From Thermomicrobium sp. CFH 73360 (GTDB lineage: Bacteria; Chloroflexota; Chloroflexia; Thermomicrobiales; Thermomicrobiaceae): a DNA stretch of 64,000 bases. Numbering within the stretch: position 1 is the first letter of the stretch; every line of letters begins with the position of its first letter. A model generated the notes under the pieces. It saw only the letters and a list, made by a program, of their open reading frames with translations. It ran no database searches and was not told where the DNA came from. Positions 13,582 to 18,741 of the stretch are shown here, one piece after another. The position numbers were made by a program, and so were the translations under genes. Where the stretch lies: the NCBI RefSeq assembly GCF_023806465.1, contig NZ_JAMSLS010000004.1, positions 74,498 to 138,497 of the forward strand, read 5' to 3'.

Positions 13582-14613
13582 TTACCTCGAGTGTGGCCGG
13601 GTTGCCAGGAGTTCCGTGACTATTGCACGAAGGTCGTTGAGGAACACCCGGCGAGCGGCTTCTCCAGGCGGCAAACGACAACCAGCAGCACGGGGATGTC
13701 CACCGCCACCGTACCGCTGGCAGAGTTGGGCAACGTCAACTAAGGAGTCAGCGGAGCGCAGACTCACACGCCAACCTTCGGGCTGTTCGTAAAAGAGCAG
13801 CGACACCACTGTGCCCTCAGCTCCGCTGAGAAAATTTACGATTCCTTCTCCCTCAAGGGGCCTCGCGCCAGTCTCGCGGAGCATGTCCCGCGTAATTTCG
13901 GTCCAAATCAACGGCGGTTCAACACGGATTCGACTCAATGCAGCGCCCCACAAACGAATCGTGGAAACGGGTTTCCGCCGAAAGAGGTTATTGACAATCT
14001 CTTCATGACGGGCACCAAGGCGCAGAAGGAGAGCAGCGAGTTCGAGTGCGCGGACGCTGGTGCTTGTTGTCTGAAAACTCAACGTGTCCCCATAGAGCCC
14101 CGTAAGCAAACAGGTCGCAATATCGGGCGTGATGGTGACACCAACTGTCAGGAACCATTGCGCTAATATCTCGGTCGTTGAAGCCGCGTTCGGATCGATG
14201 AGGTCGACGTGTCCGAAACGAGTATTCGTAATGTGATGGTCGATGTTCACCATTGGTATTTGGCCGTCGAACCAGTTGGAATGCAAGTGAAAGAACGGTC
14301 CGAGCCGACTTGGATCGGCGCAATCGAGGAGCGCGATACAGTCGGGTGTCTCGTGCACCGTTGCAGGCTCACGGATCAGTAGGTCGGCCGCTGGGAGAAA
14401 AGACAGACTTGAGGGGACTAGGCCATCTCCCGTCAAACAGATCAAGTTAGAGACCACTTCGGCGAGGGCTAAACGGAGAGCCAAGATCGATGCGACCGCG
14501 TCGGCATCGGGATTTGCGTGCGTGGCGATCAACACCGTGCGCGCGCTGGCAAGCAGTTGCCAGGCGGCGCGACCCTCGAAACCCGTACTGTGGTTCGGTT
14601 CACGAGTGGTCAT
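13582..14613 (-). CDS. nrnA: DHH-family oligoribonuclease / pAp phosphatase
   Basis: NrnA-type enzymes degrade nanoRNA from the 5' end and dephosphorylate pAp. The 343-residue product has an N-terminal DHH domain (THANPDADAVAS, LLDCADPSRLG, and NIDHHITNTRFG with the DHH motif) and a C-terminal DHHA1 domain ending in RYGGGGHPRAAGCRL. The start at 14613 overlaps the rbfA end by 14 bases; an upstream in-frame start at 14709 would lie deep inside rbfA. The order rbfA-nrnA-truB-ribF is common in bacteria, which supports the call. Confidence 0.93.
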   Translation of the reverse strand: MTTREPNHSTGFEGRAAWQLLASARTVLIATHANPDADAVASILALRLALAEVVSNLICLTGDGLVPSSLSFLPAADLLIREPATVHETPDCIALLDCADPSRLGPFFHLHSNWFDGQIPMVNIDHHITNTRFGHVDLIDPNAASTTEILAQWFLTVGVTITPDIATCLLTGLYGDTLSFQTTSTSVRALELAALLLRLGARHEEIVNNLFRRKPVSTIRLWGAALSRIRVEPPLIWTEITRDMLRETGARPLEGEGIVNFLSGAEGTVVSLLFYEQPEGWRVSLRSADSLVDVAQLCQRYGGGGHPRAAGCRLPPGEAARRVFLNDLRAIVTELLATRPHSR

Positions 14614-14989
14614 CGTCTTTACTCGTTCCTGCCATGTCAGTTTGTCGTTCTCGCTCAATCTGATACAGCAGGCGCGCGACCTGCTCCGCGTGTTCGAGCG
14701 AACGATCAAGCTTAAAATGCAGTTCAGGAATGTGTCTTGTGTGCAGATGAGGAGCGATCAACCGACGGATGAAGCCGGCGGCACCTTGGAGTGCCTGCAA
14801 TGCTGCCTCTTGTTCTTCGTGACTGCCGTACACGGAGACAAAAACACGCGCATGACGGAGGTCAGGGCTGAGTTCGACGCGTGTGACGCTGACGAAACCG
14901 AGGCGGGGATCGCGGAGTTCACGTTGGATGATGGCACTGATCTCGTCACGCAGGAACTCTGCTAGTCGCGCTTGTCGATAACCGGGCAT
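14600..14989 (-). CDS. rbfA: Ribosome-binding factor A
   Basis: RbfA is a small KH-like protein that binds the 30S subunit during late 16S rRNA maturation. The 129-residue product begins MPGYRQARLAEFLRDEISAII, carries LRDPRLGFVSVTRVELSPDLRHARVFVS, and ends its core with HTRHIPELHFKLDRSLEHAEQVARLL. Its length is typical of the family. It follows infB after 43 bases on the minus strand and overlaps nrnA. Confidence 0.95.
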   Translation of the reverse strand: MPGYRQARLAEFLRDEISAIIQRELRDPRLGFVSVTRVELSPDLRHARVFVSVYGSHEEQEAALQALQGAAGFIRRLIAPHLHTRHIPELHFKLDRSLEHAEQVARLLYQIERERQTDMAGTSKDDDHS

Positions 14990-15032: not shown

Positions 15033-16895
15033 TCAACGCCCGCGCGGTACCTGTTCGATGTGATAGAACTCGATCTGATCGCCGACGCGGATATCGTTGA
15101 AGCCGTCGATGGTCACGCCACACTCGTAGCCCGCGGCGATTTCCCGGACATCTTCTTTGAATCGACGCAACGAGGCGACCGTGCCCTCGTGGATCACCTT
15201 GCCGTCCCGGATGACGCGGACGCGAGCATTGCGTAGAGCCTTACCACTCACAACGTAGAGACCGGCTGCGACCGCTCGGTTCGGGAGGCGGAACGTTTCT
15301 CGTACTTCGGCGACACCGTCAACGACTTCTCGCGTTTCAGGTGCGAGCAATCCGGTGACGGCACCACGAACTTCCTCCAGCAGGTGGTAGATGACATCGT
15401 AGTACCGAATGTCTACACCGGTCGCTTCCGCAGCACGTCGGGCGGCAACGTCAGGACGGACGTTGAAGCCAATGACGATCGCGCCGGTCGTCGCGGCAAG
15501 CATGACGTCCGACTCCGAGATGGCACCAGTGGCCGCATGGAGAACAGTGATACCAACACCTTCGAGCTCATCATTGAGCTTTGCCAGAGCGTTTTGGATC
15601 GCCTCCAGGCTTCCCTGAACGTCCGCTTTCAGGATGAGGCGCAGTTCGCGCGTCTCGCTAACCTGGAGCCCCTTGTGGAACTCGTCGAGCTTGATGACGC
15701 GCGTCTCAGCAAACGCCTCAGCGCGGCGCTTGAGTGCGCGCTGCGCGGCGATTTCCTTGGCGGTACGCTCATCCTCGACGACCTGGAGGTAGTCGCCTGC
15801 CTCCGGCACTTCCTCGAGACCGAGAATCTCAACTGGCATGGAGGGTTCGGCGCGACGTACCTTTCGGCCGCGGTCGTCGAACATGGCGCGGACACGTCCC
15901 CACGTTGCACCAGCGACCACGATATCGTTGAGTTTGAGGGTGCCCGTCTGGACCAAGACCGTCGCGATGGGGCCCCGCTTCTGATCGATCTTGGCCTCGA
16001 TGATCACACCGATGGCTGGCCGGTTCGGGTTAGCCTTGAGTTCGTGCAAATCAGCGACTAGCAAAATCATTTCCAACAGATCCTCGATGCCAAGTCGCTG
16101 TTTCGCCGACACCTCGACGACAGGCACGTCACCGCCGTACTCCTCCGGGATGACGCCGATTTCTGCCAGCTGCTGCTTGACGCGGGCTGGGTTGGCCGTG
16201 GGTAGATCAATCTTGTTGATCGCGACAATGATCGGCACATTCGCCGCACGGGCGTGAGCGACTGCTTCCCGTGTCTGCGGCATCACCCCGTCGTCAGCTG
16301 CAACCACCAAGACCGCGATGTCCGTGACCTGGGCACCGCGGGCGCGCATGGCGGTGAAGGCCTCGTGTCCAGGGGTGTCGAGGAAAGTAATCTTGCGGCC
16401 CTGGACCTCGACTTGGTACGCACCGATGTGCTGCGTAATCCCGCCAGCCTCACCCTCGGCGACATTTGTGTGCCGAATGGCGTCGAGCAGCTTCGTCTTC
16501 CCGTGGTCGACGTGCCCCATGATTGTGACAACAGGAGGACGCGGCACGGCCCCGGGCTCCTGTGCGCTCAGCCGGACGATCTCGGCCAAGCTCTTCTCCT
16601 GTTGGACGGCTTCGGGAGTCCGTTCAACGAGCTCGACGCCGAAGTCGGCGGCGACGGCTGCGGCGGTTTCAAAGTCGATCTGCTGGTTAATGCTCGCCAT
16701 GACGCGTCGCTGCATGAGTGCCTTGATCAATTCGACTGCGCTGACACCAATCGCCTCAGCGAGCTCGCCGACCGTGATGACACTACCGATCTCGATCGGC
16801 CCCTTGACTGTGGCGATGCCGCTACCGCTGCGCTGCGTTGCTGGTGTCGGGCGCTCAGGCCTCGTGGGAGCTTGCTTCTTCGCTTTCGTACTCAT
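15033..16895 (-). CDS. infB: Translation initiation factor IF-2
   Basis: IF-2 is a GTPase that places initiator tRNA on the ribosome. The 620-residue product is a short form: a brief basic N-terminus, an IF2_N helix bundle ([21 protein letters not shown], about residues 40-60), the G domain with [16 protein letters not shown] (G1), DTPGHEA (G3) and AINKIDLP (G4), then domains II to IV ending in [19 protein letters not shown]. It lacks the long N-terminal repeats of enterobacterial IF-2. The start at 16895 overlaps the ylxR stop (ATGA); the 52 codons upstream are simply ylxR read in another frame. Confidence 0.97.
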
Positions 16896-17251
16896 GGTTG
16901 TTCCTCCTGTTCGAGTACTGTCTCGTTGGCGGGCGGCTCCTCGCGGCGAATGTGGAGATCGGCCCAGCGCAAGAGTTCTGCCCGAAATTCCGGTGGTACC
17001 GGCACGCGGAGCGCGCGTTCCAGCACGTCCGTCGTGGCAGCGCGCTCCCAACAGCTGAACCGTCGGCAGAGATAGGCACCGCGGCCGCTCCGCTTGCCAG
17101 TCGGATCGATGGCGAGCGTCCCGTCCGGTGTCCGGACGATACGAACGAATGTACGCTTCAAGTCACGGGCGCGGCACGCGACACAGGTGCGTACCGGCAG
17201 ATGCTTGAGGCGCGGTCCACGCCCTTTCGTTCGGTCGGGACGCTCGCTCAT
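16892..17251 (-). CDS. ylxR: YlxR-family RNA-binding protein
   Basis: This 119-residue basic protein carries the YlxR signatures [11 protein letters not shown] (residues about 18-28) and [10 protein letters not shown]. YlxR proteins are small nucleic-acid binders encoded between nusA and infB; a role in nucleoid or RNase P regulation has been proposed. A start at ATG 17251 is preferred; an in-frame TTG at 17281 overlaps the nusA stop and would add ten residues. It overlaps infB by 4 bases. Confidence 0.9.
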
Positions 17252-17277
17252 CGTCACGATCCCCTGCGAAACGGGTG

Positions 17278-18597
17278 TCAACGGACATTGGCCGTTTCGT
17301 CATCAGTCAATGGTAGCTCACGGCCACTCTCGAAATCGTAGCGGGCGCGGAGTTCACGGTCGTAATAAACGTTCACGACACCGTTGACGATTTCGACATC
17401 GACACTCTTCATGATGAGATCGCTGGGCAACGGACCGAACTCCCGCTCGCGGATGCTGAAGGTACCATCGGCTCGGACGAGGCGCGGCTGGCGACCGAGT
17501 GCCATGAGGTCAGGAGGGAGCTCGGGCAAGCTCGTCGCAGCGCGGACGAGCAAGGCTTCCTCGCCCTTCAACGAGTCTGGATCCTTAATGTCGATCCGCC
17601 AACCAGTCAACTTGTAGGCGAGCCGTGCGTTCTGCCCATCCTTACCAATGGCCTGCGACATCTGCTCGGGCGGGACAACGACCCGTGCGACCTTCTCATC
17701 CTCATTCAGGATCACTGTGATCGGCTTCGCGGGGCTGAGTGCGTTCGCGATGAATGTGCGGATGTCCGAGGACCACTCGATCACGTCGATCTTCTCGCCC
17801 GAAAGCTCGGTGACGATGCTCTGGATTCGCACGCCACGAACGCCGACACAGGCCCCGACGGGGTCGACCTTGTCCTGCCGAGCAGCCACAGCGACCTTGG
17901 AGCGCTGACCCGGCTCGCGGGCGATTGCCATCACCTCAACCGCGCCGCTTGCCACCTCTGGCACCTCCAGCTCGAGCAGGCGCTTAATCAGGTTTGGATG
18001 CGTGCGCGAGACCAAGAGCTGTGGTCCCTTGGCGTCCTTGGTAACCTCGACGAGGTACACCTTGAGGCGCTGGCCAGGACGATAGCGTTCACCTGGAATC
18101 TGCTCGCGAGCGGGCATGATCGCCTCTGCCTTGCCGAAGCTCAAGATCACGGCGCGCGGATCGACTCGCTGGACAGTACCAGTCAGGACTTCCCCGACTC
18201 GGTCGATGAACTCGTTGTAAATCGTTTCGCGCTCAAAGTCGCGGATCCGCTGCAAGATTACCTGCTTCGCCGTTTGTGCTGCGATCCGGCCAAAGTTGGT
18301 GGGCTGGCGCTCCACGCGGACAATATCTCCCACAATTGCGCGCGGATCGATCTTGCGTGCCTCCTCGATTGAAATCTCGGTCAGCGGATCGCGTACGGTT
18401 TCGACGACACGCTTCGGCGCGAAGATGCGAATCCGACCCGTGTTCACATCAAGTTCGATCTCAACTTCCTCGTCCGAGCCAGTAGCCTTCTTATACACTG
18501 TCCGCAGGGCCTGCTGGACGGACTCCATGACCGCTTCGCGCGGAATGCCGCGCTCTGCTGCGATCTGTGCAATAGCAGTGTAGAGATCGCTCTTCAT
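17278..18597 (-). CDS. nusA: Transcription termination/antitermination factor NusA
   Basis: NusA binds RNA polymerase and governs pausing, termination and antitermination. The 439-residue product has the N-terminal polymerase-binding domain (1-125), an S1 domain (about 130-200, GEVLTGTVQRVDPRAVILSFGKAEA), and two KH domains (DPVGACVGVRGVRIQSIV and QAIGKDGQNARLAYKLTGW). It lacks the C-terminal acidic repeats, as in many non-proteobacteria. It is the first gene of its operon; rimP, its usual upstream partner, is absent. A promoter and a terminator-like hairpin precede it (18659-18741). Confidence 0.97.
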   Translation of the reverse strand: MKSDLYTAIAQIAAERGIPREAVMESVQQALRTVYKKATGSDEEVEIELDVNTGRIRIFAPKRVVETVRDPLTEISIEEARKIDPRAIVGDIVRVERQPTNFGRIAAQTAKQVILQRIRDFERETIYNEFIDRVGEVLTGTVQRVDPRAVILSFGKAEAIMPAREQIPGERYRPGQRLKVYLVEVTKDAKGPQLLVSRTHPNLIKRLLELEVPEVASGAVEVMAIAREPGQRSKVAVAARQDKVDPVGACVGVRGVRIQSIVTELSGEKIDVIEWSSDIRTFIANALSPAKPITVILNEDEKVARVVVPPEQMSQAIGKDGQNARLAYKLTGWRIDIKDPDSLKGEEALLVRAATSLPELPPDLMALGRQPRLVRADGTFSIREREFGPLPSDLIMKSVDVEIVNGVVNVYYDRELRARYDFESGRELPLTDDETANVR

Positions 18598-18658: not shown

Positions 18659-18685
18659 AAAAATTAAAGTGGGCATTGCCCACTT
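18659..18685 (-). terminator. Terminator-like hairpin in the nusA leader (candidate attenuator)
   Basis: On the minus strand an 8-bp stem AAGTGGGC/GCCCACTT with a 3-base loop (18667-18685) is followed at once by TAATTTTTG. It lies downstream of the nusA promoter and about 70 bases upstream of the nusA start, so it would act on nusA's own transcript. The interrupted U-tract is what a weak, factor-dependent terminator looks like. Confidence 0.6.
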
Positions 18686-18712
18686 GTCCGGGGCGCTCCG
18701 TTTACCATAGAC

Positions 18713-18741
18713 AGTATAGCAGTCGACTCGCGTTGTTGCAA
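18713..18741 (-). promoter_or_regulatory. Promoter of the nusA operon
   Basis: On the minus strand, -35 TTGCAA (18736-18741) and -10 TATACT (18713-18718) are spaced exactly 17 bases. The predicted start of transcription is near 18706, giving a leader of about 110 bases. Confidence 0.78.

Follow-up and report, generated by a model that had tools for sequence, protein, structure and literature searches.

What role does a hairpin play when it lies between a promoter and nusA, the first gene of its operon? The question is raised by a 64,000-nucleotide stretch of DNA from Thermomicrobium sp. CFH 73360 (contig NZ_JAMSLS010000004.1, positions 74,498 to 138,497), hereafter the window, in which the genes nusA, ylxR, infB, rbfA and that of a DHH phosphoesterase follow each other on the minus strand according to Pfam. 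The initial annotation had placed here a TTGCAA/TATACT promoter with 17-bp spacing, an 8-bp stem about 20 bases past the predicted start, an interrupted U-tract and then about 60 bases to nusA. All of these were recovered. The promoter scan returned both hexamers with a 17-nt spacer and an extended -10 box (18741-18713, minus strand), the hairpin begins approximately 20 nt past the putative start, and 61 bases separate the end of the U-tract from the nusA ATG (Table 1). The terminated RNA would have a predicted length of approximately 47-49 nt; this length and the 20-nt distance both follow from placing the start 7 nt past the -10 box. No start-site paper for Thermomicrobium roseum was found in the literature. 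The neighbour upstream of nusA, a CofD/YvcK-like gene, is on the plus strand and divergent, so the hairpin cannot serve as 3' terminator for an upstream gene read in the same direction.

Table 1. Features of the nusA operon and its leader (positions in the window).
Feature	Position	Strand	Basis
nusA, operon gene 1 (NusA_N, S1, KH domains)	17278..18597	-	ORF and Pfam
ylxR (DUF448), operon gene 2	16892..17281	-	Pfam
infB (IF-2), operon gene 3; real start probably 3' of listed TTG	15033..17051	-	Pfam
rbfA, operon gene 4	14600..14989	-	Pfam
-35-like hexamer TTGCAA	18736..18741	-	promoter scan of window; near chance alone (0.5 expected)
-10 hexamer TATACT, extended (TG one base upstream)	18713..18718	-	promoter scan; box in same place in relatives
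Putative transcription start	18706	-	7 nt past -10, from -10 position
Terminator hairpin AAGTGGGC-AAT-GCCCACTT, 8 bp, 3-nt loop	18667..18685	-	terminator scan, fold, relatives, covariation
Stem arm AAGTGGGC	18685-18678	-	read from sequence
Loop AAT	18677-18675	-	read from sequence
Stem arm GCCCACTT	18674-18667	-	read from sequence
Interrupted U-tract TAATTTTT (T-AA-TTTTT)	18659..18666	-	read from sequence

The hairpin is fairly strong, with a stability of approximately -12 kcal/mol. NusA-dependent terminators are often weak, and the interrupted U-tract is the sole feature of the site that would point to NusA dependence. A direct repeat, GCCCCGG(A/T)C, was observed to flank the hairpin and U-tract on both sides (18694-18651, minus strand), and GCCCGG-like flanks are also present in several relatives.

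Comparison with relatives was needed because the scans of the window were near chance, with one promoter found against 0.5 expected and two terminators against 1.7 expected, and because the fold of the 49-nt leader had a z-score of only -1.5. The window alone thus gave nothing beyond chance, and it is conservation that establishes the element as real. A chance hairpin devoid of function would agree with these window-only numbers; it is contradicted by the conservation, covariation and nusA specificity given below, and its probability is negligible.

We compared 110 nusA loci from Thermomicrobia and other Chloroflexota, with six from Bacillota, the last being the whole of the Bacillota evidence. 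In 106 of the 110 loci a GTGGG...CCCAC stem with a T-rich tail was found in the 1500 bases that precede nusA, standing before nusA or rimP, and the remaining four carry stems of other sequence in the same place (GTCGG/CCGAC or GGGGCGC/GCGCCCC). Further stem variants in the phylum are GTGGC/GCCAC, CTGGG/CCCAG and GCGGG/CCCGC. When the approximately 1.27 million strand-bases of these loci were searched with the pattern, 33 extra matches appeared, 32 of them the opposite strand of the leader itself and one unrelated. Within the genus and family, the nusA leaders vary in their loop and flanks but hardly at all in the GTGGGC/GCCCAC stem and its TTTAATTTTT tail. Both non-T positions of the family U-tract are kept in 18/18 leaders (AA in 17, CA in the other one), a hint that the terminator is weakened and tuned.

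The same stem with covarying pairs, which the initial annotation had proposed to look for in the nusA leaders of related genomes, was indeed present. Across 67 aligned leaders, the pairs at the outer end of the stem change between A-U, C-G and G-C with G-U intermediates; GTGGG/CCCAC was fixed in the pattern used to choose these leaders, so that the invariance of the five core pairs is partly by construction and 106/110 is the unselected figure. The covariation score of this alignment was 0.272, as compared to 0.145 after shuffling (0 of 500); with the partners slid it did not exceed 0.096. Of 104 leader windows, 78 hold a -10 box (five or more matches) at the corresponding position, as compared to 27 of 602 control windows, and the distance from this box to GTGGG is 26-34 nt in most leaders. 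In several relatives the modelled element stops 10-14 nt short of the nusA start. A promoter could not be fitted between hairpin and gene there, so nusA transcripts must cross the terminator. This arrangement fits an attenuator; it does not fit an insulated upstream terminator.

A covariance model built on the hairpin and its tail was then used to search the genome itself and 151 genomes of the phylum. In its own genome the model matched this site alone (E 2e-6), the next hit (E 1.1) being its palindrome as seen from the other strand. At E ≤ 1e-3 the phylum gave 77 matches immediately upstream of nusA versus 2 elsewhere, and at E ≤ 0.05 a nusA-adjacent match was present in 96 of the 131 phylum genomes with a placed nusA. 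About 35 of the 131 had no model match beside nusA; among ten of these that were inspected, most have a variant hairpin and a few have none. One strong second match (E 7e-6) lies away from nusA at 1501-1543 of locus L137 (G071:C603:2741-2783), on a 3.4-kb contig that may be misbinned. The palindrome occurs as one copy in the genome, and a dispersed operator or repeat was rejected on this ground. It is also a perfect 19-bp palindrome just past the start, as would be expected if it acted in DNA, as the operator of a repressor controlling the promoter, and not as an RNA hairpin. An operator of this kind is very improbable: relatives differ in half-site spacing (4 to 9 nt), G-U wobble pairs are tolerated in the stem, the U-tract is conserved on the nusA side, and the genome holds no second copy.

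Taken with the promoter-adjacent hairpin and U-tract, the conserved position, the covarying outer pairs, the nusA specificity and the lack of room for a second promoter in some relatives make a leader attenuator on the nusA operon well supported by the comparative data. RNA polymerase would start at the adjacent promoter, make approximately 20 nt of 5' RNA and then transcribe the GUGGGC/GCCCAC hairpin and its weakened U-tract. The outcome would be either termination, giving the short RNA, or readthrough into nusA-ylxR-infB-rbfA. Our preferred reading, to which we assign a probability of roughly 0.7, is a rimP-leader-type transcription attenuator at which NusA most likely stimulates termination, so that high NusA would lead to less of its own operon in a negative feedback. 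The attenuator part of the earlier proposal stands on position, covariation and nusA specificity. Its NusA part, and the feedback in Thermomicrobium sp. CFH 73360, would be drawn from the precedent in B. subtilis, as cited in PMC12288461, and from the loss of rimP described below.

The same anatomy fits equally well a constitutive partial terminator that fixes a low expression of the operon with no feedback by NusA, and neither a regulator binding site nor an antiterminator was supported. For the latter we considered a GCCC of the family, approximately 10 nt upstream, that could pair with the GGGC of the 5' arm. All 5' segments of the family fold with this GCCC-GGGC pairing, but shuffled 5' segments pair nearly as stably, and pairing of the 5' segment with the stem was no better than in shuffles (mean z -0.72 in the family and about 0 elsewhere). 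Still, the promoter could by itself hold expression at a constant level, which would make a stem sequence shared across phyla and confined to nusA operons needless, and there are reports of NusA feedback in B. subtilis and E. coli (PMC12288461; PMC2965389). We therefore consider a constitutive terminator unlikely.

The identity of the sensing protein was approached through rimP. RimP was not found in the genome even at E 10. Its N-terminal Pfam domain was detected in 0/61 genomes of the order to which the window belongs and its C-terminal domain in 0/21 genomes of the order searched, the controls being detected in both cases. Across the phylum rimP is present in only 17 of 151 genomes and undetectable in 134, and none of the 17 rimP-bearing genomes has a model match at its rimP-nusA operon. 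In the Bacillota loci the leader precedes rimP-nusA, with RimP confirmed by Pfam. Since rimP is mostly lost and the rimP-bearing genomes of the phylum show no model match, the leader belongs with nusA and not with rimP. RimP feedback cannot explain the retention of the leader, because RimP is undetectable in the genome itself and in 60 relatives. The leader that was kept without rimP argues against RimP as the regulator and points to NusA.

Eight of the 17 rimP-bearing genomes were inspected, and two have a related AGGGGCC/GGCCCTT terminator at the rimP-nusA operon. The rimP-bearing Chloroflexota families (G064, G087, G096, G105, G114, G131, G194 and others) are mostly without the GTGGG leader, a pattern inverse to that of Bacillota, where both co-occur. 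At one Clostridia locus (L053, 2918-2960) the leader is directly 5' of nusA with no rimP in between, and a glycyl-tRNA synthetase gene adjoins.

Another factor that recognizes the stem (NusG, IF2, RbfA, a ribosomal protein, or one tied to cold or stress) could also govern termination. The core stem is conserved beyond the needs of pairing, GTGGG being kept in 106/110 loci, and the 2010 paper argued likewise (PMC2965389). However, RimP is set aside for this clade by its absence, nothing singles out any other factor, and NusA acts directly on terminators, which leaves such control improbable. For NusA itself we tentatively go one step further. The GUGGG/CCCAC leader could be an ancestral NusA attenuator that predates the split of Chloroflexota and Bacillota and is held, independently of RimP, by NusA or NusA-bound polymerase touching the stem's 5' arm in a sequence-specific way; rimP would then have been lost in most of the phylum and the leader not. 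The initial annotation had suggested that the feedback logic had either arisen or persisted here. The core stem in the Bacillota rimP-nusA loci and a related terminator in E. coli K-12 speak for persistence and against a separate origin.

The idea of an attenuator at this operon is not new, since the rimP-leader, which this element matches, was already described in 2010 (PMC2965389). Naville and Gautheret called it the most ubiquitous attenuator and proposed feedback by NusA, preferring NusA over RimP as the sensor while leaving the choice open (PMC2965389). What is added here is the rimP-less setting with the leader kept on nusA; with rimP lost from most Chloroflexota, nature has in effect removed the gene, and the outcome favours NusA. 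The conservation of the stem beyond pairing also makes direct recognition of the terminator stem by NusA testable. Chloroflexi are not mentioned in the main text of that paper (PMC2965389). Rfam RF01770 (rimP) is named after the same leader, but its model is narrower; it gave no match in the region at E ≤ 5 and none in 21 genomes (this one and 20 relatives) at E ≤ 1, and the present covariance model detects the element where it fails.

The rimP-leader is a short GGGc...gCCC-stem terminator with a U-stretch in the 5' UTR of rimP-nusA-infB, with no larger structure and no general antiterminator. Here the stem GTGGGC-AAT-GCCCAC is followed by TTTAATTTTT and lies directly 5' of nusA-ylxR-infB-rbfA, at 61 nt from the gene, within the 4-130 nt of the known leaders. 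The signature is specific to the operon (sole match in the genome; 77 versus 2 in the phylum at E ≤ 1e-3), and no antiterminator of general form pairs better than shuffles. By the features tested the element is a rimP-leader and thus of a known kind. It differs in that the operon starts with nusA, rimP being undetectable, and in the family-specific U-tract UUUAAUUUUU.

In B. subtilis the NusA-autoregulated leader (Mondal et al. 2016, as cited in PMC12288461) likewise terminates transcription ahead of the nusA operon genes, reportedly with no antiterminator structures; the evidence is experimental there and inferred here. In E. coli K-12 the metY-rimP-nusA leader has a shorter stem, is longer, includes metY and holds an extra upstream terminator, but it carries CTGGGC-TTTAG-GCCC-TTTTTTT 5' of rimP, a related GGGC/GCCC terminator. 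The rimP-nusA leader of S. agalactiae is from another phylum and has rimP, and its RNA ends 31 nt past the start (PMC4448216), as compared to the predicted 47-49 nt here. In both, the terminator is near the start, and in S. agalactiae one start gives a short terminated RNA and a long transcript (PMC4448216), as would be expected for the nusA leader of Thermomicrobium.
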